From contig NZ_JANHDK010000003.1 in assembly GCF_024494725.1 (NCBI RefSeq), positions 124,001 to 188,000 on the forward strand: a stretch of 64,000 nt of DNA, in the 5' to 3' direction. The notes below the pieces were generated by a model. That model was not told where the DNA came from. It was given only the letters and a program-made list of their open reading frames with translations, and did no database searches. The position numbers were made by a program, and so were the translations under genes. Source of the stretch: Haloplanus ruber. GTDB taxonomy: Archaea > Halobacteriota > Halobacteria > Halobacteriales > Haloferacaceae. Numbering within the stretch: position 1 is the stretch's first letter; each line of letters begins with the position of its first letter. Below are positions 8,664-23,899 of this stretch, piece by piece.

Positions 8664-9887
8664 ATGACCCAGTCGGGAACATCGAACGGCGGTGGCGGCG
8701 GGACGTTGCGCCGGAACTTCCTGAAACTCGTCGGCGGTGCCGCGGCCGGATCGGTCATGACACGGTACAGTTCGGACGTCGCCGCGGCGCTGGATCGGGC
8801 GACCAACGGCTCGAAGGAGGTCGTCTGGCTCCAGGGACAGACCTGTTCTGCGTGTACGATGTCGACGCTTCAGGGCACGTCACCGAGTCTCGAGGAGGCA
8901 ATCACGGAGTTCAAACTGGATGTCACCTACCACCCGGAGTTGATGGCGGAGACGGGCCAGGCGGCAATCGATGCGATGAGCGACTCGCCGGACATCCTGA
9001 TGATCGAAGGCGCCATCCCGACCAAGATTCCCTCCGCGGCGACGTTCGGACGGGACGAACGTGGTCGGCGCAAACCCATCGTCGACTGGGTGAAAGAACT
9101 CGCCCCCGAGGCGGAGTACGTGATGGGTATCGGCACGTGTGCCTGTTACGGCGGGTGGCAATCCGCCGAAAACGGTGCGCCGGCCGTCATGGACGACCCG
9201 GAGGACGGACCGTGGATGGACCCCAACGTCACCGGGGCCAAGGGCGTCCAGTTCACCCATCAAGAGGGCGACCAGGGCGTTCTCGGCCCCGACTTCACCT
9301 CGAACGCGGGGCTGCCGGTCATCAACGTCCCGGGGTGTATGACCCACCCCGACTACGTGCTGTTGACGGTGGCGACGCTGCTGAACGGACACACGCCCGA
9401 GTTAGACGAGTACAACCGGCCGGAGGCGTTCTACGGCCCGCTGGTTCACGATCAGTGTTCGCGCCGGGGCTACTTCGACCGCGGCGAGTTCGTCGACCAC
9501 GTCGGCGAGGACTCTGAAAAGTGTCTCTACACCGTCGGCTGCAAGGGACCGTACTGCCACTGTGACGACTCGGTTCGGCTCTGGAACGACGGGACGAGCG
9601 TCTGTCGGAACGTCGGCGCGCCGTGTATCGGCTGTATGGAACCGGGATTCTGGGACAACATGACGCCGTTCTACGAACCCATCGAGCAGCAGGGTCTCGC
9701 GATGACCGACATCGAGACGGCGGGGCTCACGGCCGTCGGGGCCACCGTCGCCGGCATCGGCGCCCACGCCGTCCGCAAGGCGACGGGCTACGGCGACACC
9801 GACGACGCCGCGGCCGAGGGCGACCCCGGGGCCGACACCCACGACTGTGACTGTGACGACTGTGACTGCCGGAGCACGGAGGACTGA
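8664..9887 (+). CDS. hyaA: [NiFe]-hydrogenase small subunit (Tat exported)
   Basis: A 407-residue electron-transfer subunit. A twin-arginine signal (RRNFLK, R16-R17) directs the folded enzyme across the membrane, so the active site faces outside. Iron-sulfur ligands are visible: proximal cluster C61, C64, C159, C225; distal cluster H262, C265, C287, C293; medial cluster around C298/C300, C321 and C324 (PCIGC). The proximal site has the ordinary four cysteines, not the six of classic oxygen-tolerant enzymes, although an extra C161 lies next to it. After a weak C-terminal hydrophobic segment (about 352-370) the protein ends in an unusual Cys/Asp tail (C395, C397, C400, C402). It is followed three bases later by the large subunit. 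Confidence 0.95.
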   Translation: MTQSGTSNGGGGGTLRRNFLKLVGGAAAGSVMTRYSSDVAAALDRATNGSKEVVWLQGQTCSACTMSTLQGTSPSLEEAITEFKLDVTYHPELMAETGQAAIDAMSDSPDILMIEGAIPTKIPSAATFGRDERGRRKPIVDWVKELAPEAEYVMGIGTCACYGGWQSAENGAPAVMDDPEDGPWMDPNVTGAKGVQFTHQEGDQGVLGPDFTSNAGLPVINVPGCMTHPDYVLLTVATLLNGHTPELDEYNRPEAFYGPLVHDQCSRRGYFDRGEFVDHVGEDSEKCLYTVGCKGPYCHCDDSVRLWNDGTSVCRNVGAPCIGCMEPGFWDNMTPFYEPIEQQGLAMTDIETAGLTAVGATVAGIGAHAVRKATGYGDTDDAAAEGDPGADTHDCDCDDCDCRSTED

Positions 9888-9890
9888 CCG

Positions 9891-11456
9891 ATGCCAGAGA
9901 TTGAAATCGATCCGACGACGCGCATCGAGGGTCACCACAGCACGACCCTGAACGTGGAGAACGGCGAGGTGACGGAGGCGAAAAGCCACATGGACATGTT
10001 CCGTGGCATGGAACTAGTCGTGTTGAACCGGCCGCCGTCCGACGCGCCGGTGTTCACACAGCGGGTGTGTGGGGTCTGCTTTTCGGTCCACCGACAGACG
10101 TCGCTGCTCGCCATCGAGAACGCGGCCCGGAACGCGGGCGTGTTCGACGGTATTCCGGAGACCGCTCGGAAGATGCGCAACCTCCTCGAGAGCATGGCGA
10201 CGCTGTGGAATCACGCGGTCCACATGTTCGCGCTCGTGGGACCGGATTACAGCGACGCTGTCGCCGACACGGGGTTGACGCGCCTCGATCCGATGGAAGG
10301 CGAGGGATACACGGCCGCCCTAGAGGCACAGCGAAAACTGCTCCAGGGCTTCGCCGAGTTCGGTGGGAAAGCGCCCCACCCTCTGACGTACGCGCCCGGC
10401 GGCATGTCGGCCAACCCCACTATCGAGAAACTCCAACAGATCCGCGACCAGGTGGCGTTTGTCAGCGAGTGGCTCGGCCCGACCGACGCCGTGCCTGACG
10501 TCGTCGAGAACGTCCGCAACGGCGAGTTCGACGACTCGCTCGGCGCGGGACTGCACGACATCGTCTCCATCCTCCTGGCCGCCAAGGAGGCCGGCGCCGA
10601 CGACTTCGGCGTCGGTCCCGGCCGGTACTACTGCAACGGCATCTATCCCGACGCGAACGGCGAGGACAAGATTCCGGCGGGAATCTACGTCGACGGCGAA
10701 CTCTCTCACCCGAGCGACGCGGAGATCAAGGAGGCCATCACCGAGAGCACGGCACGGTCGTGGTACACCGACGACTCCGGCGGGTCGCCGATGGAGGCGT
10801 CCCCGCCCAAACCCGACCCGGACAAGGCCGACGCGTACTCGTGGGGGAAAGCCCCGCGGTACGACGGCATGAACATGGAGACGGGATCGCTGGCGCGCCT
10901 GATCGTCACCGAGCGTGACCCGTTCGACCTGCGGGCGACGCTCGGCGGCGACCCCACGAAAAGCAGCACGCTCAACCGCCTGATCGCGCGGGCACAGGAG
11001 GCCCTGCTCCTCCGCGATCAGATCCTCGACATCCTCGACGACATCGACCCCAACGGGACGGTCAACGTCGGCTGGAGCGACGACTTCAGCGGCGAAGGCG
11101 TCGGCCTCTGGGAGGCGTCTCGCGGTGCGCTCTCCCACTGGGTGAAAGTCGAAGACGGCACCATCACCAACTACCAGATCATTACGCCGACGCTCTGGAA
11201 TCTCGGCCCACGCGACGAGTCGGGAACGCCGAGCATCTTCGAGACGGCCGTCGAGGGGATGGCGGTCGAAGACGTGGAGAACCCGATCAACGTCATGCGA
11301 ACGGTGCGGTCGTTCGACCCGTGTCTGGCGTGTTCGGTCCACGTCGAGAGTCCCGAGGCAAGCTACACCGAGGAGATCACCCCGGCGTCGCCGGGCGGCG
11401 CGATGACCGGCGTCGGCGACACCCCCGTCGCCGGTGAGGAGGTCGACGAGCCGTGA
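9891..11456 (+). CDS. hyaB: [NiFe]-hydrogenase large (catalytic) subunit
   Basis: A 521-residue subunit that binds the Ni-Fe(CN)2CO centre and oxidises H2. The N-terminal ligand motif is RVCGVCFSVH (C60, C63). The C-terminal motif is DPCLACSVH (C478, C481). Maturation proteases cut after the His (H484), here releasing about 37 residues, clearly longer than the usual 15 or so. It has no signal peptide and should ride out with the small subunit through the Tat system. Its TGA overlaps the GTG start of the cytochrome b gene (GTGA). The motifs place it among membrane-bound group 1 enzymes; the subgroup needs a phylogeny. Confidence 0.96.
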   Translation: MPEIEIDPTTRIEGHHSTTLNVENGEVTEAKSHMDMFRGMELVVLNRPPSDAPVFTQRVCGVCFSVHRQTSLLAIENAARNAGVFDGIPETARKMRNLLESMATLWNHAVHMFALVGPDYSDAVADTGLTRLDPMEGEGYTAALEAQRKLLQGFAEFGGKAPHPLTYAPGGMSANPTIEKLQQIRDQVAFVSEWLGPTDAVPDVVENVRNGEFDDSLGAGLHDIVSILLAAKEAGADDFGVGPGRYYCNGIYPDANGEDKIPAGIYVDGELSHPSDAEIKEAITESTARSWYTDDSGGSPMEASPPKPDPDKADAYSWGKAPRYDGMNMETGSLARLIVTERDPFDLRATLGGDPTKSSTLNRLIARAQEALLLRDQILDILDDIDPNGTVNVGWSDDFSGEGVGLWEASRGALSHWVKVEDGTITNYQIITPTLWNLGPRDESGTPSIFETAVEGMAVEDVENPINVMRTVRSFDPCLACSVHVESPEASYTEEITPASPGGAMTGVGDTPVAGEEVDEP

Positions 11457-12289
11457 CCGCCTCCGAATCCGGATCGGGTACGGGCGCCGACGACGCGGCG
11501 TCGCTCCGCCGACGGGCCGGGGCGCTCGTCCGCGCGGCGCTCGCGTCGCCCGAGGAGGCCGACGACCGGTACCGGCGCGTGCAGGCGCTGAAAGGGCGTG
11601 TCACGGTCGAACGCCACAGCCTGGGCGCGCGAATCTCCCACTGGGTGCAGGCGTTTCTGATGTTCGTCCTGATGGCCACCGGCTACGCCATCTGGACGGG
11701 CACGTACGGCCCGCTCAACGTCGTCCCGTGGGACGGCTACTACCTCGCGTTCGGCCTCCACCTCTGGGCGGGGATTCTCCTGCTGTCCGTTTTCTTCGTC
11801 CTCTTTCCGCTGTATCACGTCTACGTCGACGGCCACCGCCAACTGGCCGAACTGACCGACATCCGCGTCGCCGTCCGGGTCGGTCAGGCCTTTGTCGGTC
11901 TCAAGTCGTATATCCCGGGCTATCACGCGGCTCGGCAGACCTACGACGAGACGGACGGCGACTGGGTGGCCTACCACCCTATGCAGAAGACGTTCTTCTG
12001 GTGGGTGTCCATCCTGTTCGGCGTCCTCGCGCTGACCGGGTTCGGGATGTACGCGGAGATGCGCACCGACCCCGCCTGGTGGATCGAGCTTCTGGGCGTG
12101 CTGGACGGGTACGTCGGCTTCGTGGTGTTGAAACAGATCCACCTGCTGGTGTTTTTCCTCATCGTCGCGATGATCGTCGGCCACGTCTACTTCGCGGTGT
12201 TGCCGAGCAACCGGGCGACGCTTCGGTCGATGGTGTTCGGCGACATGGAGGCGTACGTCCTTGGGGGTGAGGATGACGACGAGCAGTGA
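11453..12289 (+). CDS. hyaC: Hydrogenase cytochrome b membrane subunit
   Basis: A 278-residue protein that should anchor the hydrogenase and pass electrons to the quinone pool. It has a charged 55-residue N-terminal extension and then four membrane helices (about 64-82, 98-121, 180-200, 222-248). Candidate haem ligands are H63, H103, H230 and H244. The layout fits the Ni/Fe-hydrogenase b-type cytochrome family. It starts with GTG in a four-base overlap with the large subunit. Its 3' end overlaps the maturation protease gene by 17 bases, so translation of the three is probably coupled. Confidence 0.9.
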   Translation: MTASESGSGTGADDAASLRRRAGALVRAALASPEEADDRYRRVQALKGRVTVERHSLGARISHWVQAFLMFVLMATGYAIWTGTYGPLNVVPWDGYYLAFGLHLWAGILLLSVFFVLFPLYHVYVDGHRQLAELTDIRVAVRVGQAFVGLKSYIPGYHAARQTYDETDGDWVAYHPMQKTFFWWVSILFGVLALTGFGMYAEMRTDPAWWIELLGVLDGYVGFVVLKQIHLLVFFLIVAMIVGHVYFAVLPSNRATLRSMVFGDMEAYVLGGEDDDEQ

Positions 12290-12761
12290 GCCGGCGCGGG
12301 CGTCGACGGACGCGACACAGGCCGTCGTCGGCGTCGGGAGTATGGTCATGCGCGACGACGGCGTCGGCTATCACGCCGTCGAACGCCTCCACGAGCGGTC
12401 GCTGCCAGCGGGCGTAACAGCGACCCACGCCGGGACGACGGCCTTCCTGGCGCTGGAGGCGATGAGCGGAACGGATCGGGCAATCGTGGTCGACGCCCTC
12501 GCGCTGGACGACGAGCCGGGAACGGTTCGTGCGTTCCGCCTCGACGATCCGGCCACGGAGCCTCCGGAGGTAACGATGCACGACTTCAGCTTCAGCGACG
12601 CGCTCAGCGTCGGTGACGCCGCCTACGACCTGCCCGACCGGGTGTCGCTCGTCGGCGTCGTCCCCGCCCGACTCGAACCCGGGGTCGAACTCTCGGACCC
12701 CGTCGCGGCGGCGCTCCCCGACCTGGTGTCGCTGATCGAATCACGACTCACGTCAGCATGA
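12273..12761 (+). CDS. hyaD: Hydrogenase maturation protease
   Basis: A 162-residue endopeptidase of the HyaD/HybD/HycI family, which checks nickel insertion and clips the large subunit C-terminus. The family signature is GVGSMVMRDDGVG (residues 20-32). The probable nickel-sensing ligands corresponding to HybD E16, D62 and H93 are D29, D74 and H103. The ATG at 12273 is chosen because GGGGTGAGG precedes it and it begins at the expected distance from the motif; the frame also has a GTG at 12267 and a TTG at 12261. It overlaps the cytochrome b gene and shares ATGA with the small gene that follows. Confidence 0.9.
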   Translation: MTTSSEPARASTDATQAVVGVGSMVMRDDGVGYHAVERLHERSLPAGVTATHAGTTAFLALEAMSGTDRAIVVDALALDDEPGTVRAFRLDDPATEPPEVTMHDFSFSDALSVGDAAYDLPDRVSLVGVVPARLEPGVELSDPVAAALPDLVSLIESRLTSA

Positions 12762-12934
12762 ACGGACACTGGTACTGCACCGACTGCGAGGAACGGATCG
12801 ACAAGGACAGCATCGACGACCACGAGGCGCGCGGTCACCACGTCAAGGGGCATTTCCGTCCCGACCGCCTGCTACCGGGCGATCCCGAACTCCTCGGCGC
12901 GGAGGTCGGACGCGGCGACGGGGGTGGGCGCTGA
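12758..12934 (+). CDS. 58-residue C2H2-like zinc-finger protein in the hydrogenase operon
   Basis: A small gene whose ATG overlaps the protease stop (ATGA) and whose TGA overlaps the hypC start (TGATG). This tight embedding argues strongly that it is translated. The protein carries C7-X2-C10-X11-H22-X4-H27, close to classic C2H2 zinc-finger spacing, with another His at 28, followed by a Pro/Gly-rich acidic tail. I know no hydrogenase accessory protein of this form. Possible roles, all inference, are nickel or zinc handling, a chaperone for the protease or the large subunit, or regulation of the operon. It is too short to be confident about the fold. Confidence 0.75.
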   Translation: MNGHWYCTDCEERIDKDSIDDHEARGHHVKGHFRPDRLLPGDPELLGAEVGRGDGGGR

Positions 12935-13269
12935 TGTGTCTCGGCGTCCCCGGGGAGATTCGCGAGATCGACGGCACCGAGGCGGTTGCCGACTTCTGGG
13001 GTGTCGAACGCCGCGTCCGACTCGACGTGGTCGGCGACGCCGTCGAGGTCGGCGACTACATCCTCAATCACGCCGGCTTCGCCATCCGGAAGATCCCCGA
13101 ACGCGAGGTCGAGGAGACGATGGCCATCTACGAGTCGCTCTTTGGCGACGACGTCGACGAGGCGCTCGACGAGATCGGTGCCCCCCGCGGCGCCGACATC
13201 GACCTCGGCGGGGAGCAGGGCGACGCGGAGGCGGACGCGGCGGTTCCGGGTGATACCGATGGCGACTGA
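12934..13269 (+). CDS. hypC: Hydrogenase assembly chaperone HypC
   Basis: A 111-residue protein beginning MCLGVPGEI, the invariant HypC start whose Cys2 binds the Fe(CN)2CO fragment and escorts it from HypD to the large subunit. The core is normal for about the first 85 residues. The remainder is an acidic Ala/Gly/Asp tail longer than usual for the family, perhaps a halophilic extension. It overlaps the small zinc-finger gene by one base and hypD by 11 bases. Confidence 0.95.
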   Translation: MCLGVPGEIREIDGTEAVADFWGVERRVRLDVVGDAVEVGDYILNHAGFAIRKIPEREVEETMAIYESLFGDDVDEALDEIGAPRGADIDLGGEQGDAEADAAVPGDTDGD

Positions 13270-14368
13270 GGCCGACGACCTGAAGTTCCGCGATCCGGAG
13301 GCGGCCCAGGAACTCGCCGCCGACATCGAGCGGCAGATGGAGCGCATCGACCACCCGGTCGAGATCATGCACGTCTGTGGGAGTCACGAACAGGTCATCG
13401 CCAAGTTCGGCCTGCGGAGCATGCTCCCGTCCGATCTGTCGGTGACGATGGGACCGGGCTGTCCGGTGTGTGTGACGAACATGCCGGAGGTCGACGAGGC
13501 GGTGGCGCTGGCCGAAGCCGGCACGACCGTCGCGACCTACGGCGATATGTTTCGGGTGCCGGGAACCGTCAAGAGCCTCGCGGACGCCAAAGCCGAGGGG
13601 GCAGCGGTCGAAGTCGTCTACAGCGCGAGCGAGGCGGTCGAGTACGCGGCCGCCCACCCCGACGAGGACGTGGTCTTTTTCGCTACTGGCTTCGAGACGA
13701 CCGCCGCCCCCACCGCGGCCGTCCTCCAGGCCGATCCCCCGGAGAACTTCTACGTCCTCTCGGCGCACAAGTACGTCCCGCCCGCGATGGAGGTGGTCGC
13801 GGAGATGCCCGACACCGACGTCGACGCCTTTCTCGCCGCGGGACACGCCGCGACGATCACGGGCTACGGCCTCTTCGAGGAGTTCGTCGACGAGTACGAC
13901 ACCCCGGTCGTCGTCGGAGGGTTCGAACCGCTCGACGTGCTCTACGGCGTCCGGCGCATCCTGGAGTTCGTCGAGTCGGGGACGAGCGGCCTCGACAACG
14001 CCTATCCCCGGTGTGTCTCGCGTGACGGCAACGAGGCGGCGATGAGCGCTATCGACGAGGTGTTCGCGCTGACCTCGGGTGAGTGGCGCGGCATCGCCGA
14101 CATCCCGGACGCCAACTTCGTCCTCCGGGAGGCGTACGCCGCACACAGCGCCCGCCGGCAGTTCGACGTCGACCCCGTCTCGGGCGATGGCGACCCGCTC
14201 ACCGAGGAGTGTATCTGTGGCGACATCATGGCTGGCACCGCCACGCCGGAGGACTGTGCCCTGTTCGGCGAGGAGTGTACGCCACAGAATCCGGTCGGCG
14301 CCTGTATGGTCTCCGACGAGGGCACCTGCAAGATCCGACACGAGTACGGGGGCCATCCGGAGCTATGA
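13259..14368 (+). CDS. hypD: Hydrogenase maturation protein HypD
   Basis: A 369-residue Fe-S protein that with HypC carries the iron to which CO and cyanide are added. Conserved signatures are HVCGSHEQ near residue 38, GPGCPVCVTN near residue 64, and a C-terminal [4Fe-4S] cysteine set that includes ECICGDIM, EDCALFG and GACMVSD. The ATG at 13259 gives MATEADDLKFRDPE and overlaps hypC by 11 bases; the frame is open further upstream only inside hypC. It ends in an ATGA overlap with hypE. Confidence 0.95.
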   Translation: MATEADDLKFRDPEAAQELAADIERQMERIDHPVEIMHVCGSHEQVIAKFGLRSMLPSDLSVTMGPGCPVCVTNMPEVDEAVALAEAGTTVATYGDMFRVPGTVKSLADAKAEGAAVEVVYSASEAVEYAAAHPDEDVVFFATGFETTAAPTAAVLQADPPENFYVLSAHKYVPPAMEVVAEMPDTDVDAFLAAGHAATITGYGLFEEFVDEYDTPVVVGGFEPLDVLYGVRRILEFVESGTSGLDNAYPRCVSRDGNEAAMSAIDEVFALTSGEWRGIADIPDANFVLREAYAAHSARRQFDVDPVSGDGDPLTEECICGDIMAGTATPEDCALFGEECTPQNPVGACMVSDEGTCKIRHEYGGHPEL

Positions 14369-15405
14369 GCGACGACGCCCGCGACGAGGAGACGGTCACC
14401 GTCGCACACGGTGGCGGCACGGGACGAACCCGTGACTTCCTCGAAGACAGCGTTGTCCCGCGGTTTGGCGGCGACGCGGACGGACTCGCGGTCGGCCTCG
14501 ACGCCCTCGACGACGGCGCGGTTCACGAGGTGGGTGACCGGTCGGTGGTCGTTACGACCGACAGCCACGTGGTCTCGCCGCTCTCCTTCCCGGGGGGTGA
14601 CATCGGGCGCCTGGCCGTCTCGGGGACGGTCAACGACCTCGCGGTCATGGGCGCGACGGAGCCGCTCTCGCTGACCTGCTCGCTCGTCGTCGAGGAGGGC
14701 GTCTCCGTCGGGTTGCTGGAGGACGTTCTTGATTCGATGCAGGCCGCGTGCGAGGCGGCGGGCTGTGCGGTTACGACCGGCGACACGAAGGTGATGGGTA
14801 GCGGCGACGTCGACGGCGTCGTGATCAACACGACCGGCGTCGGTGTCCTGCCACAGGGGGCGCACGTCCCCGACGCCGGTCTCTCGCCCGGCGACAAACT
14901 CGTCGTCTCCGGCCCGGTCGGTGATCACGGCATCACGCTTCTGGCCGAGCGCGAGGGGTTCGACATCGAGGGCGATCTGACGAGCGACGTCGCGCCGGTC
15001 AACGACCTCGTCGCGGCCGCCCTCGACGCCGGCACCGTCACCGCCATGACGGACCCGACGCGTGGCGGCCTCTCGACGGCGCTCAACGAGATGGCCCGGA
15101 AAGCCGACGTCGGTGCCCTCGTCGACGAGACGGCCGTGCCGGTGCGCGACTCGGTCGCCGCTACCGGCGAACTCCTGGGGATCGACCCGTTCGACGTGGC
15201 AAACGAGGGGACGGTCGTCTTCGGCGTCGACGCCGCCACCGCCGACGCCGTCGTCGACGCACTCCGAGCCACGCCGCTCGGCGCGGAGGCCGCCGTCGTC
15301 GGCGAGGCCGTCACAGAGCACACCGGGCGGGTCGTCCTCGACACCGGCTTCGGGCGCCGCTATCTGAGCGAACCGGAGGGCGAACAGTTGCCGCGGATCT
15401 GTTGA
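14365..15405 (+). CDS. hypE: Hydrogenase maturation protein HypE
   Basis: A 346-residue enzyme that dehydrates a thiocarbamoyl group to thiocyanate, the source of the cyanide ligands. The N-terminal AHGGGTGR segment and the central TGDTKVM nucleotide-binding region match the AIR-synthase-like fold. The protein ends in PRIC; the terminal Cys346 is the residue that HypF carbamoylates. It overlaps hypD by four bases and is followed two bases later by hypA. Confidence 0.95.
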   Translation: MSDDARDEETVTVAHGGGTGRTRDFLEDSVVPRFGGDADGLAVGLDALDDGAVHEVGDRSVVVTTDSHVVSPLSFPGGDIGRLAVSGTVNDLAVMGATEPLSLTCSLVVEEGVSVGLLEDVLDSMQAACEAAGCAVTTGDTKVMGSGDVDGVVINTTGVGVLPQGAHVPDAGLSPGDKLVVSGPVGDHGITLLAEREGFDIEGDLTSDVAPVNDLVAAALDAGTVTAMTDPTRGGLSTALNEMARKADVGALVDETAVPVRDSVAATGELLGIDPFDVANEGTVVFGVDAATADAVVDALRATPLGAEAAVVGEAVTEHTGRVVLDTGFGRRYLSEPEGEQLPRIC

Positions 15406-15407
15406 CG

Positions 15408-15806
15408 ATGCACGAACTCAGCGTGGCGGAGGCGTTGCTCGACCACGCCGCCGCGGCGGCCGCCGACCACGACGCCGCCAGCGTCGAGGCCATCACGGTC
15501 GAACTCGGGGCGGCGACGCACGTCAACCCGACGCAGTTGCGGTTCTGCATCGAGACTGTCGCCGAGGCGACCTTCGACGCCGACCTCACCGTCCATATCG
15601 ACCCCGTCGATCCGCGAGCGACCTGCGAGTGTGGTTGGGCTGGCGACCCCCCGTCGTTCGAGGGCACCGCCGCGGTGGTGCCGACAGCGCGCTGTCCGGA
15701 GTGTGGCGGCCCGACGGAGTTCACCCGCGGAATGGAGTGTCGTCTGGCGAGTGTCACCGTCCCCGACACGCCGGCGGCGGCCAACGCGACCGACACGGAG
15801 GACTAA
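15408..15806 (+). CDS. hypA: Nickel insertion protein HypA
   Basis: A 132-residue nickel chaperone. It begins MHELSVAEAL; the MHE start includes the His2 nickel ligand. The zinc site is formed by CECGW and CPECGG, the second pair 24 residues after the first, followed by a short acidic tail. The ATG at 15408 is fixed by the conserved MHE. It works with HypB to place nickel in the large subunit, and hypB follows after three bases. Confidence 0.95.
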   Translation: MHELSVAEALLDHAAAAAADHDAASVEAITVELGAATHVNPTQLRFCIETVAEATFDADLTVHIDPVDPRATCECGWAGDPPSFEGTAAVVPTARCPECGGPTEFTRGMECRLASVTVPDTPAAANATDTED

Positions 15807-15809
15807 CAT

Positions 15810-16631
15810 ATGAAACCTGTTCACGCACACTCGACGCACTGTCCGCCAATCGACCACCTGCTCGCGGCCCTGTTCGGACGCCGTGAGGCGTCGCCTGTCG
15901 CCCGCACTCACCGATTCGGACACGACGACGCGGCCGAGACGGCGACGGGCGACGACGTGCTTGCGGAGTTTCGCGCACAGGCGCGGGACCTGCACGAACG
16001 ACTCGTCCACGAGCACGGCGTCTTCGTCGCCGAGTTCCTCGGGGCGACCGGGAGCGGCAAGACCACCCTCGTCGAGCGCCTCATCGAGCGGGCACCGGCC
16101 GACGAACGGATCGGCGTCATCGTCGGCGACGTGGCCGGCGACGACGACGCGAGCCGCTACCGAGACCACGGTGTCGCCGTCACGAACGTCACCACCGGCA
16201 AGGAGTGTCACCTCGATCCGGGCCTGATCGAGGACGCCCTCGCCGACTTCGACCTCCACGCGCTGGACACGCTCTACGTCGAAAACGTCGGCAACATGGT
16301 CTGTCCCGCGGACTTCCCGCTCGGTGCCCAACTTCGCGTCCTCGTCGTGAGCACGACCGAGGGCGACGACGTGGTGCGCAAACACCCACTGCTCTTCCAG
16401 GCCTGCGACGCCGCGGTCGTGAACAAGGCAGACCTCGCGGACGCGGTGGGCGCCGACATCGACCGGATGGCCGCCGACGTCGCGGACGTGGCTCCGGGGT
16501 TGGACCTGTTCCGCACCAGCGCCCGCGACGGCGACGGGGTCGAACCGCTGGCGTCCTTCCTCGATGGGGTTCGCGCCGACGGTCACGACCACCACGGCCA
16601 CCGCCACGGCGCAGACGAACACCTGGGGTGA
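15810..16631 (+). CDS. hypB: Nickel-handling GTPase HypB
   Basis: A 273-residue SIMIBI GTPase. Walker A is GATGSGKT (residues 78-85), the base-recognition motif is NKAD, and the metal-binding GKECH segment at the dimer interface is present. The histidine-rich nickel-storage region sits at the C-terminus (HDHHGHRHGADEH), not in the N-terminal stretch where bacterial HypB usually carries it. The N-terminus itself has scattered His and Cys residues. The gene lies three bases after hypA and two bases before hypF. Confidence 0.95.
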   Translation: MKPVHAHSTHCPPIDHLLAALFGRREASPVARTHRFGHDDAAETATGDDVLAEFRAQARDLHERLVHEHGVFVAEFLGATGSGKTTLVERLIERAPADERIGVIVGDVAGDDDASRYRDHGVAVTNVTTGKECHLDPGLIEDALADFDLHALDTLYVENVGNMVCPADFPLGAQLRVLVVSTTEGDDVVRKHPLLFQACDAAVVNKADLADAVGADIDRMAADVADVAPGLDLFRTSARDGDGVEPLASFLDGVRADGHDHHGHRHGADEHLG

Positions 16632-16633
16632 GG

Positions 16634-18937
16634 ATGTCCGCCGAACGCCGTGCCACCGTTCGCGTCTCCGGTGTCGTTCAGGGCGTCGGATTTCGCCCGT
16701 TCGTCTACCGAACCGCCGTCGACGCCGGCGTCACGGGCTACGTCCGCAACGCCGGCGGCGTCGTCGAGGCTGCCTTCGAGGGGACACAGGCCGACGTCGA
16801 GCGTGTCGTTACGGCGATCCGAACGGACGCACCGCCGCTGGCGTCGGTCGACGCGGTCGACGTCTCCTGGGGTGTGCCACGCGGCACCGAATCCTTCGAG
16901 ATTCGGGACTCGACCGCGGGACCGGGAGAGGCGCTCGATACGCCGGTGCCGCCGGATACGGGGGTCTGTGACGCGTGTCTCTCGGAGATGCGGGACCCCG
17001 ACTCCCGCTATCACGGCTACTGGGCGACGGCCTGTGTCGACTGCGGCCCGCGGTTCACCGTCGTTAGGGACGTCCCCTACGACCGATCCCGGACGGCGAT
17101 GGACGACTTCCCGATGTGTGCGGCCTGTCGGGAGTCCTACGAGACGCCGACCGACCGCCGCTACCACGGGCAGGCCATCGCCTGCCCCGACTGCGGGCCG
17201 ACGCTGCGCTTCGAGGTCGACGGCCGGACCGTCTCGCGTGGCCACGACGCGCTCGGTGCCGTCGCCGACGGCCTCGCCGACGGCGAGGTGCTCGCGGTCA
17301 AGGGAATCGGCGGCGTCCACCTCGTCTGTGACGCGACCGATCCGGCGGCGGTCGACCGCCTCCGCTCGCGCACGGGCCGACCCGCCAAACCCTTCGCCTG
17401 TATGGCCCCCTCTCTCGACGCCGTCGCGTCGTTCGCCCGCGTCGGCGACGCCGAGCGGGCGGCCCTGCGGGACGTTCGGCGACCGATCGTCCTTCTCGAC
17501 CGGACGGCCGAGGCGGACTGGCTGGACGCCGTCGCGCCGGGGCTGTCGACGGTGGGCGTCATGCTCCCGTACGCCGGCCTGCATCACCGTATCTTCGATC
17601 ACGTCGACGGGCCACTGGTCGCCACGAGCGCCAACATGCCCGGAGGGCCGATGTGTACGACCGCCGCGGCGGTCCGGTCCCGTTTGGACGGGGTCGTCGA
17701 CGGGGGACTCTTTCACGACCGCGATATCGTCGCTCGGTGTGACGACAGCGTGCTCCAGGTCGTCGACGGCGCCACGCGGTTCGTCAGGCGCTCCCGTGGC
17801 TGGACGCCGCGCGCGCTTCCGAACCCCGTGGCCGGCGACGGCTCTCCTGTGCTGGCGGTCGGCCCGGAGCGAGACGCGACCGTCGCGCTCGCCGAGGGTG
17901 ACCGCGTCGTCCTCTCCCAACACCTCGGCGACGTGACCGGCCCGGACACGACGGCGTTCCACCGCGAGGCCGTCGCCCACCTGCGCGACCTCACCGGCAT
18001 CGACCCGGCTGTGGTCGCCCGTGACCGCCATCCCGACTTCCAGACGACGGCGGAGGCGGAACGGTACGCTAGCCAGGGCATGGACGGTCCCGTCGCCGTC
18101 CAGCACCACCACGCACACGCCGCGGGCCTGTGCGCCGAACATGGCGTCGAGCGGGCCATCGTCGTCGCCGCCGACGGGACGGGATACGGTCCGGACGGGA
18201 CCGTCTGGGGTGGCGAAGTGCTCGATGTCACCTACCAGGGATACGAGCGGATCGGCGGTCTCTCGCCGTTCACTCTGCCGGGCGGCGAGGCGGCCGTCGA
18301 GTATCCGGCGCGAATCCTCGCGGCTCTGCTCGCCGACCCGGACCGCATCGACGAGCGCCTCGTCGCGACGGACGCCGTCGACTCGCCGTCCGACGCCGCG
18401 GTGGTCAGACGGCAAGCCGCCGGCGACGTGAACGCGCCGACGACCACGAGCGCCGGTCGGTATCTCGATGCGGTCGGTGCCCTCCTAGACGTCTGTGATC
18501 GGCGGACGTACGAGGGCGAACCGGCACAGCGGCTTGAGGCGACGGCGACCGATGGGGACGCCCACGCGGTGTCTCTCCCGTTCGATACCCAGGCGGGGCG
18601 TCGCGTGCTCGATACGCACGCGCTCGTCGGAACGCTCGCCGAGCTAACGGGTGAGCTGTCGGTCGCCGATATCGCCGCGACGGCACAGGACACACTCGCC
18701 CGCGGACTCGCGGACATCGCGATTGAGGCCGCCGACGAACGCAGTGTCGACGCCGTCGGCTTCACCGGCGGCGTCGCCTACAACGACGCCATCTCGCGAC
18801 GGTTCCGCGCGTGCGTCACGGACGCGGGCCACACCGTTCTCGCCCCGGACGCCGTTCCACCGGGTGACGGCGGGGTTGCGTACGGACAGGCCATCGTGGC
18901 GCTCGCCCGCCGGCGCGACGGAGCCGTCGACCGCTGA
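16634..18937 (+). CDS. hypF: Carbamoyltransferase HypF
   Basis: A 767-residue protein that transfers a carbamoyl group from carbamoyl phosphate to HypE for cyanide synthesis. Domains in order: acylphosphatase-like (VQGVGFRPFVYR, about 10-95), two zinc-finger units built from CDAC/CVDC and CAAC/CPDC pairs, a YrdC-like domain, and a Kae1-like domain with HHHAHAA. The length is normal. The ATG at 16634 precedes the acylphosphatase domain directly; the open frame reaches further into hypB but without coding sense. It closes the hydrogenase run and converges on the regulator at 18981. Confidence 0.95.
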   Translation: MSAERRATVRVSGVVQGVGFRPFVYRTAVDAGVTGYVRNAGGVVEAAFEGTQADVERVVTAIRTDAPPLASVDAVDVSWGVPRGTESFEIRDSTAGPGEALDTPVPPDTGVCDACLSEMRDPDSRYHGYWATACVDCGPRFTVVRDVPYDRSRTAMDDFPMCAACRESYETPTDRRYHGQAIACPDCGPTLRFEVDGRTVSRGHDALGAVADGLADGEVLAVKGIGGVHLVCDATDPAAVDRLRSRTGRPAKPFACMAPSLDAVASFARVGDAERAALRDVRRPIVLLDRTAEADWLDAVAPGLSTVGVMLPYAGLHHRIFDHVDGPLVATSANMPGGPMCTTAAAVRSRLDGVVDGGLFHDRDIVARCDDSVLQVVDGATRFVRRSRGWTPRALPNPVAGDGSPVLAVGPERDATVALAEGDRVVLSQHLGDVTGPDTTAFHREAVAHLRDLTGIDPAVVARDRHPDFQTTAEAERYASQGMDGPVAVQHHHAHAAGLCAEHGVERAIVVAADGTGYGPDGTVWGGEVLDVTYQGYERIGGLSPFTLPGGEAAVEYPARILAALLADPDRIDERLVATDAVDSPSDAAVVRRQAAGDVNAPTTTSAGRYLDAVGALLDVCDRRTYEGEPAQRLEATATDGDAHAVSLPFDTQAGRRVLDTHALVGTLAELTGELSVADIAATAQDTLARGLADIAIEAADERSVDAVGFTGGVAYNDAISRRFRACVTDAGHTVLAPDAVPPGDGGVAYGQAIVALARRRDGAVDR

Positions 18938-21316: not shown

Positions 21317-23899
21317 TTACTCCTCCGGGTCGACGTTCGCCAGCCGCATCGCGTTGCCCGTGACCGCGAGGCTCATGCCCATGTCACCGATCACGACGGC
21401 GTGGATAACGCTCACCAGACCGAGCGGCGCCCCCGCCGCGAGGACTAGCTTCACGCCCAGCGACGACCAGATGTTCGTCTTGATGACGCCGTTCGCCTGC
21501 TGGGAGAGCGCAACGAGGTAGGGGAGCCGCGTCAGGTCGTCACCCATCAGCGCCACGTCGGCCGTCTCGATGGCGGTGTCGGTGCCCGCGGCGCCCATCG
21601 CGACCCCGACCGTCGCGGCCGCGAGCGCCGGGGCGTCGTTGACGCCGTCGCCAACCATCGCCACGCCGCCATTCGTCCGATTCCACGGCAGGCGAGCGTC
21701 GTCGGCCGCGGCGGCCTCGGAGTCGGCCGCGAACTCGCGGATCGCCGCCACCTTCTCGTCGGGCAGGAGGTCGGCCCGCACCTCGTCGACCCCCACTTGC
21801 GACGCGATGGCGCGGGCGGTCCGCTCGTTGTCGCCGGTCAGCATGACCACCCGCTCGATCCCGAGGTCGTGCAGACGGTCGACGGTCGCGGCCGCCGCCG
21901 GGCGGACCGTATCGGCCACGGCGATCACCCCTTCCAGTTCGTCGGCCGTGCCCACGAGGACGACGGTCTTGCCCGCGGCCTGCAGGCGCGGGACCACGTC
22001 GTTCACCAGGTCGAGATACCCCCCCTGACCGTGGTCACAGCTTGCGGGTTCGATGTCGCCGACGGCGAGACCCCCGTCGGTCGCCACGTGAGCGTGTTCG
22101 AGGTCGAACCCCAGCGACTCGAACAGCGCCGGCTTGCCCGCGTAGTGAGTGACCCCGTCCAGGTCGGCGCGGACGCCCTCGCCCGTGATCGACTCGAAGC
22201 CGGTCACCTCACGCTCCCCGACCCCGGCGTCGGTCGCGTGCTCGACGATGGCCGTCGCGATGGGGTGTTCGCTCCGTCGCTCCATCGCGGCCGCACACGC
22301 CAACACGTCGCCCTCGCTCGCTCCGTTCAGGCCAACCACGTCCGTCACGCCGAGTTCGCCGGTCGTGATCGTCCCGGTCTTATCGAGGGCAACGGTGTCC
22401 ACCTCGCCCATCGCCTCTAAGCGGTCGCCGCCCTTGATGAGGACGCCGTTGCGCGCCGCGCTCGTGATTCCCGAGACGACGCTGACGGGCGTGCTGATGA
22501 CGAAGGCGCACGGACAGGCGACGACCAGCAGCGTCAGCCCGCGGACGAACCACGTCTCGAACGGCGCGCCGACGAGCAGGGGTGGGACGAGCGTCGTCGC
22601 CACCGCCAGCGCCACCACCGCCGGCGTGTAGTAGGACGCGAACCGGTCGACGAATCGCTCGCGCTCGGACTTGTCGCGTTCGGCGTCCTCGACCAGGTCG
22701 ATCACCTTCGACAGCGTCGACTCCGCCGCGAGCGCCGTCGCCTCCACCTCTAGGTAGCCCTCGGCGACGATGCTTCCGGCGTACACCTCGTCGCCCGGCG
22801 CGACGTCGACGGGCACGCTCTCGCCGGTGATCGGCGACTCGTCGACCGCACTCCGACCCTCGCGGACGACGCCGTCGACGGGCACGCGGTCGCCCGGTCG
22901 CACCACCACCAGGTCGCCGACGGCCACCTCGTCGACCGGGACCGTCTCCTCGTCGTCTCCGGCGGCTTCGCCGCCCTCACCGGGCGTCCCCGACGCTTCG
23001 CGTCGCACCGTCGCCGTGTCGGGCGAGAGGTCCATCAGCTCCGACATCGACGACCGGGCGCGATCCATCGAGTAGCGTTCGAGGAGTTCGGAGACCGAAA
23101 ACAGCACCGCGAGCGTCGCCGCCTCGAAGGGGAGATCGACCGCGACGGCGCCGACCACGCCGGCGCTCATCAGGAAGTCGATGTCGAGGCTGCGGGTCCG
23201 CACCGAGTACCACCCGTTCCGCAAGATGGCCTGCCCAGCCACCACTGCCGCGAGGACGTACAGCGCCCAATCGACGGTGATCGTCCGCCCGAACCCGGAC
23301 GCGAGCGTCGCGTTCGCCCCCGTGAGAGCGTACTCGAAGGCGACCCCGAGGAGCAACGCGACGGCGCCGAGGCCGGTCTTCAGCGCCCGCCGACTCCGCC
23401 AGACCGACGACGACTCACGCTCGCCGTCGATCACCTCGTAGCCGGCGTTCTCCACCGCCGCCACCACGTCGCCGCGGGCCGCCCGCTCGGGGTCGTACCG
23501 CACCTCGACGCGGCCGGACGCCGGCCGCGTGTCGTACTCGACGACGCCGTCCAGACCAGCCAGCGCCGACTCGACTTTGCCGGCACACGACGAACAGTCC
23601 ATCGACGGCACCGCGAACGTCTCCGTCTCGGCATCGGCGACGGTGTAGCCCGCCGTGTCGACCTGCTCTCGAATCGCCGCCGCCGTCGTCGCCTCGGGGT
23701 CGAAGTCGACGATCAGCGTCCCCGAGGCCGGTCGGGTCTCGACCGACCGCACCCCCGCAAGCGTCCGGACGCTCCGCTCGACCTTCCCGGCACACGAGGG
23801 ACAGTCCATCGCCGGAACGGACGCACGGAAGCGCTCGCCCCCGTTTGTCTCCGGGTGGCCCTCTGCCCCCCCGGCCGTACAGTCGCACTCGTCGCTCAT
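21317..23899 (-). CDS. P1B-type heavy-metal ATPase, probably Zn/Cd exporter
   Basis: An 860-residue membrane pump. Two heavy-metal-associated domains sit at the N-terminus (CPSC at 33-36 and CSSC at 102-105), preceded by a CDC-containing leader. The core has the CPC transport motif (VVACPCAF), the phosphorylation site DKTGT and GDGVND. In the last helices LGVKLVLA and VIGDMG place a Lys and an Asp as in the ZntA (P1B-2) group, which favours Zn, Cd or Pb over copper. No metalloregulator gene is adjacent. A TATA box and an inverted repeat lie just before the start. Confidence 0.92.
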   Translation of the reverse strand: MSDECDCTAGGAEGHPETNGGERFRASVPAMDCPSCAGKVERSVRTLAGVRSVETRPASGTLIVDFDPEATTAAAIREQVDTAGYTVADAETETFAVPSMDCSSCAGKVESALAGLDGVVEYDTRPASGRVEVRYDPERAARGDVVAAVENAGYEVIDGERESSSVWRSRRALKTGLGAVALLLGVAFEYALTGANATLASGFGRTITVDWALYVLAAVVAGQAILRNGWYSVRTRSLDIDFLMSAGVVGAVAVDLPFEAATLAVLFSVSELLERYSMDRARSSMSELMDLSPDTATVRREASGTPGEGGEAAGDDEETVPVDEVAVGDLVVVRPGDRVPVDGVVREGRSAVDESPITGESVPVDVAPGDEVYAGSIVAEGYLEVEATALAAESTLSKVIDLVEDAERDKSERERFVDRFASYYTPAVVALAVATTLVPPLLVGAPFETWFVRGLTLLVVACPCAFVISTPVSVVSGITSAARNGVLIKGGDRLEAMGEVDTVALDKTGTITTGELGVTDVVGLNGASEGDVLACAAAMERRSEHPIATAIVEHATDAGVGEREVTGFESITGEGVRADLDGVTHYAGKPALFESLGFDLEHAHVATDGGLAVGDIEPASCDHGQGGYLDLVNDVVPRLQAAGKTVVLVGTADELEGVIAVADTVRPAAAATVDRLHDLGIERVVMLTGDNERTARAIASQVGVDEVRADLLPDEKVAAIREFAADSEAAAADDARLPWNRTNGGVAMVGDGVNDAPALAAATVGVAMGAAGTDTAIETADVALMGDDLTRLPYLVALSQQANGVIKTNIWSSLGVKLVLAAGAPLGLVSVIHAVVIGDMGMSLAVTGNAMRLANVDPEE

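Follow-up and report, generated by a model that had tools for sequence, protein, structure and literature searches.

The window, a stretch of 64,000 nucleotides from Haloplanus ruber, carries a block of [NiFe] hydrogenase genes in the order small subunit (SSU), large subunit (LSU), cytochrome b, HycI, Z58, HypC, D, E, A, B and F, where Z58 is the name given here to a 58-codon open reading frame (ORF). The features are as follows, with the basis of each in brackets.

8664..9887, + strand: small subunit HydA, with an RRNFLK Tat-like signal and NiFe_hyd_SSU_C (ORF list, family search)
9891..11456, + strand: large subunit HydB, with DPCLACSVH and a C-terminal extension, the presumed HycI substrate (ORF list, family search)
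11453..12289, + strand: cytochrome b subunit HydC (family search)
12273..12761, + strand: hycI/hydD, hydrogenase maturation protease and likely Z58 partner (Pfam HycI, TIGR00072; Z58 fusion in six relatives)
12758..12761, + strand: ATGA overlap of the Z58 start with the hycI stop (sequence; -3 geometry common to 13 of 19 unfused operons)
12758..12934, + strand: Z58, 58-amino acid C2H2-type zinc-finger protein with a conserved tail RPDRLLxxDP (translation, orthologues, dN/dS)
12932..12936, + strand: TGATG overlap of the Z58 stop with the hypC start (sequence)
12934..13269, + strand: hypC (family search)
13259..14368, + strand: hypD (family search)
14365..15405, + strand: hypE (family search)
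15402..15806, + strand: hypA, the operon's known zinc-binding nickel chaperone (family search)
15810..16631, + strand: hypB (family search)
16631..18937, + strand: hypF, with its start taken from the ORF layout (ORF list; as a tblastn query it retrieves syntenic homologues from relatives)

The hydABC-hydD-hypA-F block of haloarchaea has already been described (PMC6176080). As the original prediction had it, the Z58 gene overlaps both of its neighbors, through the ATGA shared with hycI and through the TGATG in which its stop codon TGA (12932-12934) has one base in common with the HypC ATG at 12934. Among the unfused operons of relatives, the Z58 start overlaps the hycI stop as ATGA in 13 of 19, the remaining gaps being 0 to 32 bases, and translation of hycI and Z58 may be coupled through this overlap. 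The predicted ligand pattern C7-x2-C10-x11-H22-x4-H27 is likewise present, followed by an additional His (H28), and its four residues are invariant in all 28 orthologues. That such a gene should have homologues in other haloarchaeal hydrogenase operons, free of frameshifts and stops, was borne out by these 28 orthologues, every aligned copy of which is open.

The orthologues were collected in three ways. Among 392 Halobacteriales genomes searched, 44 gave a match with E up to 0.01 and 25 a strong match (E up to 1.2e-11); a search of 60 genomes of relatives added one strong Z58 (G026), and a scan of named contigs added two new carriers, Salinibaculum sp. KK48 and Halovenus salina; the remaining three loci of that scan belong to genomes already counted. 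All 28 orthologues are haloarchaeal, and all adjoin hycI (26, together with L035 and L037), with hypC directly downstream in 24, the exceptions being four genomes of genus g68 (L013-L016). Fourteen positions are invariant in the alignment of 28 rows (M1, W5, C7, C10, I14, H22, E23, H27, V29, P35, R37, L38, L39, and P43), so that conservation is as strict in the tail as in the finger, whereas the extra His at position 28 is found in part of the family only. The net charge is -5 to -15 in every member, and dN/dS is 0.04-0.38 in 14 pairs, with dS saturated in some (up to 2.9), showing that Z58 is under purifying selection. Because it lies at the same place in 28 genomes, with invariant residues and low dN/dS, Z58 is a real gene encoding a conserved protein; a spurious or chance ORF is ruled out by the orthologues, the conserved residues, and the purifying selection.

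The distribution of Z58 follows that of a particular hydrogenase. HypD and the NiFe large-subunit family are both present in the same 40 of the 392 genomes, and 25 of these 40 have a strong Z58 versus none of the 352 HypD-negative genomes (Fisher p 2e-29, kinship ignored). Profile searches of the 15 HypD-positive genomes lacking a strong Z58 gave a best E of 0.026, leaving aside a weak 45-residue finger in the genomes of genus g60, and a general role in Hyp-dependent maturation is therefore disfavored. No convincing Z58 was found outside the order when 246 genomes of the phylum were searched with a profile, nor by tblastn in eight non-haloarchaeal loci, where the small Cys/His ORFs listed are unlike Z58. 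The 19 genomes with weak matches comprise seven g60 genomes, three g85 genomes, and nine scattered short matches. The 45-residue WYCKDC finger is present in all seven HypD-positive g60 genomes (e.g. L061:6216-6386 and L062:6475-6708). In the three regions examined (L061-L063), no hydrogenase genes adjoin this finger, and it was treated as a distant paralogue of Z58. Its neighbor in both regions with a called ORF is presumably a methyltransferase gene.

In a tree of 39 large subunits, the 29 haloarchaeal sequences form one clade (support 100/100), and 25 of them are accompanied by Z58. Z58 thus goes with a single clade of respiratory [NiFe] hydrogenases in haloarchaea; next to other hydrogenases served by the same Hyp proteins, none was found. 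The clade members without Z58 are L050 and L051 (from G172 and G335), as well as L054 and L056, which are second large subunits of genomes carrying Z58 elsewhere. Twelve of the 15 HypD-positive genomes without Z58 have distant large subunits only (about 30% identity where the regions were read, or group-4-like partial matches); among the Z58-less genomes, large-subunit identity is 39% in G044 and 60-61% in G172 and G335. On the large-subunit tree, the Z58 label needs three changes, which fits one gain and two losses. The long HydB C-terminal extension was considered as a reason for the presence of Z58; tails are 13-16 residues in the outgroup and longer in the Z58 clade, but their length is non-discriminating because Z58-less haloarchaeal enzymes also have tails of 21-54 residues.

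Two kinds of Z58-less enzyme occur within the clade. In two g60 genomes (L050:5260-6309 and L051:5180-6175), the C-terminal iron-sulfur domain has been lost from the small subunit, which terminates in an Arg-rich tail that is polar and in part repetitive, and neither Z58 nor a cytochrome b gene was matched nearby; given this loss and the missing cytochrome b match, these are unusual enzymes. L054 and L056 belong to second SSU-LSU pairs in g68 genomes, near which HycI, cytochrome b, and Z58 were unmatched.

The decisive evidence is a gene fusion in relatives. HycI and Z58 form a single uninterrupted in-frame ORF in 6 of 25 operons (L065, L066, L073, L074, L075, and L081), and the N-terminal part of all six matches Pfam HycI (43.0-51.7 bits, cut-off 23), whereas ten other kinds of neighboring pair in the same 25 operons, used as a control, are fused in 0 of 203 cases. 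The length of the linker varies by whole codons, as expected if selection keeps the joined frame. The six fused loci are one large-subunit clade (support 100/99), perhaps reflecting one event. All six fused ORFs keep the ancestral Z58 start (five ATG, one GTG), and four have a Shine-Dalgarno-like stretch of at least 5 nt before it (722 of 7958 ATGs in the background); because of this retained start codon and Shine-Dalgarno-like stretch, free Z58 may also be made in the fused clade and might still be the working form there.

Z58 also stays with HycI where the hyp genes do not. In the g68 genomes (L013-L016), the hyp genes lie elsewhere and Z58 still adjoins hycI. In the Halovenus-type operons (L036, L037, and L080), HypC, D, E, and A have been exchanged and Z58, HycI, LSU, and SSU kept, with the breakpoint between Z58 and hypC. 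Identity between Halovenus-type and window-type operons is 0.64 for HypC, 0.65 for HypD, 0.54 for HypE, and 0.48 for HypA versus 0.79, 0.84, 0.77, and 0.62 within the window type, whereas for Z58 (0.75 versus 0.77), HycI (0.69 versus 0.71), LSU (0.83 in both), and SSU (0.80 in both) the two comparisons are close. A mirror-tree analysis of pairwise distances over 22 operons, in which correlations are uncorrected for relatedness, placed HycI highest for correlation with Z58 (0.85), ahead of HypB (0.815), LSU (0.76), HypF (0.74), and SSU (0.73), with lower values for HypC (0.66), HypD (0.62), HypA (0.58), and HypE (0.55). The partial correlation of HycI with Z58 is 0.56 given LSU and SSU, that of LSU 0.09 given HycI, and that of HypB 0.41 given LSU, SSU, and HycI. 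Adjacency and shared recombination tracts alone could give such co-inheritance of Z58 and HycI.

The original description of Z58 as undescribed holds as far as the databases and literature searched go: no Pfam or NCBIfam family is matched above cut-off, RefSeq annotates one orthologue (WP_117362505.1, from Natrarchaeobaculum sulfurireducens AArc1) as hypothetical protein, and no paper describing Z58 was found. The structural model of Z58 alone has the succession strand, strand, helix, strand (residues 2-7, 12-14, 16-24, and 29-34), with a mean pLDDT of 70.5, values of 80-88 in residues 1-30, and a weak tail, and Foldseek returned no match for it at E 0.001 or better; the best hit of a Z58 profile against PDB sequences (E 0.0027) covers a 12-residue WYCxDC stretch. 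The AlphaFold model of the fused L074 protein (pLDDT 87.8, pTM 0.71) gives high values for the finger (96/95), and leaves the linker (79, 72) and the tail (56, 55) weak, so that no docking of the two parts can be read from it.

The conserved Cys and His residues at C2H2 finger spacing in 28 of 28 members resemble those of a classical C2H2 protein, p06 of the archaeal virus AFV1 (2lvh), which shares C-x2-C-x11-H-x4-H and hydrophobic residues at the usual places (14 and 19); the structural match is weak (Z 2.2, rmsd 2.8, 34 aligned), and Z58 differs in its extra strand 29-34 and conserved tail and in matching no Pfam C2H2 model. The ubiquitin-binding zinc finger zf_UBZ (PF18439) is matched weakly, at E up to 0.1 (best 5.9e-4), by 14 of 28 members; for fused L081, where score and curated cut-off can be compared, the match reaches 16.8 of the 25.6 bits needed, and the window Z58 is unmatched at E 0.1. 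The relation to the HycI/HybD/HyaD/HydD proteases (PF01750) is one of adjacency, and of fusion in six genomes: in a Foldseek comparison, the fused L074 model hits E. coli HybD (1cfz, E 3.9e-11) along with further members of solved structure, none of which, among the matches listed, is described with a zinc-finger domain, and Z58 itself has neither a protease signature nor a HycI domain match. Nor does it match the HypA family, hypA being a gene of its own at 15402-15806. HupI and HoxR are, like Z58, small metal-binding proteins of group 1 hydrogenase operons, but these rubredoxin-type accessory proteins need four Cys, whereas Z58 has two Cys and two His; a rubredoxin-like iron protein, with four Cys in two CxxC(G) knuckles, is ruled out by ligand count. 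The CPxCG-related haloarchaeal proteins, including Brz, are also small with paired Cys/His patterns; they are defined by at least one CPxCG, CPxCx, or CxxCG paired with two Cys/His 2-3 residues apart (PMC2253796). Z58 falls outside this published motif: the window protein has CTDCE and H-x4-H, and within the family CxxCG occurs in 4 of 28 members (L011, L010, L037, and L028) and H22-x4-H27 in all. A Brz-type identity was rejected on this ground; moreover, Brz is encoded by a separate gene upstream of bop, unlike Z58, which lies mid-operon and is fused to an enzyme in some genomes.

We propose, with a probability of roughly 0.55, that Z58 serves the HycI/HydD-type protease of one haloarchaeal clade of Tat-exported respiratory (group 1) [NiFe] hydrogenases as a dedicated accessory subunit, in the manner of an adaptor or docking factor; most likely it helps HycI mature the hydrogenase. 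This is the best explanation because HycI and Z58 are fused in one clade and Z58 keeps its place beside HycI where hypC has moved away or been exchanged. One Zn2+ held by C7, C10, H22, and H27 would fold a beta-beta-alpha finger, which together with the conserved tail RPDRLLxxDP(W) would form a protein-binding surface. With this surface Z58 could dock on HycI, or bridge HycI to the HydB precursor, such that holding or cleavage of the HydB C-terminal extension would be properly timed, following the insertion of nickel, with the overlapping genes keeping HycI and Z58 in step and a covalent link doing so in the fused clade. The conserved tail and net acidity of the predicted protein would suit binding to protein more than to DNA. 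Against this reading, HycI works without Z58 in most organisms, and Z58 was not found in two haloarchaea of the same hydrogenase clade (G172 and G335) or in G044. In its favor, a Salmonella protease of the HycI family and the large subunit it serves associate in a stable complex (PMC5299533). We suggest only tentatively that HycI and Z58 make up a two-part maturation protease, in which the Z58 subunit might recognize the HydB precursor or its C-terminal extension and gate cleavage.

The original prediction had offered large-subunit processing, metal transfer, or regulation as roles for Z58. The first of these is supported by the HycI-Z58 fusions, found in 6 of 25 operons, and by the fact that Z58 is inherited together with HycI and not with HypC, whereas nothing found favors metal transfer or transcription regulation. 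Much the same association could arise if Z58 were a chaperone that stays with the HydB precursor or the Tat-exported HydA until maturation is complete, like HyaE, HybE, and HupG-H of proteobacteria, its link to HycI then coming only through both binding HydB. The tie of Z58 to one hydrogenase clade and not to Hyp proteins as such, the Tat-like signal on the small subunit, and the absence of a proteobacterial chaperone homologue among ten operon proteins scanned would all agree with this; on the other hand, the sole fusion partner is HycI, never HydA or HydB, and comparison with Pfam and NCBIfam gives Z58 no sequence likeness to the proteobacterial chaperones, making a chaperone unlikely. Regulation of operon transcription has a precedent in Brz, one of many small zinc-finger proteins in haloarchaea, which acts on its neighbor gene, raising bop expression in Halobacterium salinarum (PMC2253796). 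A Brz-like regulator is nevertheless a decidedly poor prospect, since Z58 fails the CPxCG-related motif, is acidic, and is fused to a protease, and its gene sits mid-operon with overlapping neighbors.

Less probable still is a metal carrier or sensor (of Zn, Ni, or Fe) that feeds or checks the metal site during maturation. The four invariant Cys/His residues and the extra His28 in part of the family could serve such a function, and nickel in the precursor is reported to be recognized by HycI proteases; however, HypA and HypB are already in the operon, the CxxC...H...H pattern and conserved hydrophobic core residues fit a structural zinc site, and a rubredoxin-type Fe(Cys)4 site is excluded by there being only two Cys. 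Finally, the operon is patchy, Z58 being absent from all 11 further genomes searched in the genus of the window, and it moves as a block, as a mere passenger would. That Z58 has no role in maturation is nonetheless highly improbable in view of purifying selection, its one place in 28 of 28 genomes, the lack of a strong Z58 in 352 HypD-negative genomes, and the fusion with HycI.

The preferred reading, an accessory subunit of HycI, bears on a step that is not settled, namely how maturation proteases tell a nickel-loaded from an empty large subunit and meet their one substrate; a conserved partner fused to the protease offers a small testable handle on it, in a lineage whose hydrogenases function at molar salt, and gives a likely role to one of many unnamed small haloarchaeal zinc-finger proteins. 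Should the two-part protease be true, a dedicated subunit of such an enzyme would be known for the first time, its tie to HycI consisting of a gene overlap in most lineages and of a covalent fusion in one. Z58 itself appears to be new; its kind, an accessory protein of hydrogenase maturation, is already known. No paper linking a zinc finger with a hydrogenase maturation protease or a HypC-containing operon was found in the mostly open-access literature searched; the main text of PMC6176080, on haloarchaeal hydrogenase operons, has zero occurrences of "zinc finger", and one paper among those joining hydrogenase, haloarchaea, and zinc finger deals with zinc fingers, as far as its available text goes, only in general terms.

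Two further features of the window may concern metals. The C terminus of HydA (about 9826-9884) is a Cys-rich tail, HDCDCDDCDCRSTED, which is perhaps metal-binding; small-subunit tails with a similar CxC..CxC arrangement occur in L034, L035, L038, L077, and L079, partially in L080, and not in L036 or L037. Downstream of the operon, at 21317-23899 on the reverse strand, lies an ORF that by eye resembles a P-type ATPase for heavy metals, with a pair of metal-binding repeats near its N terminus.
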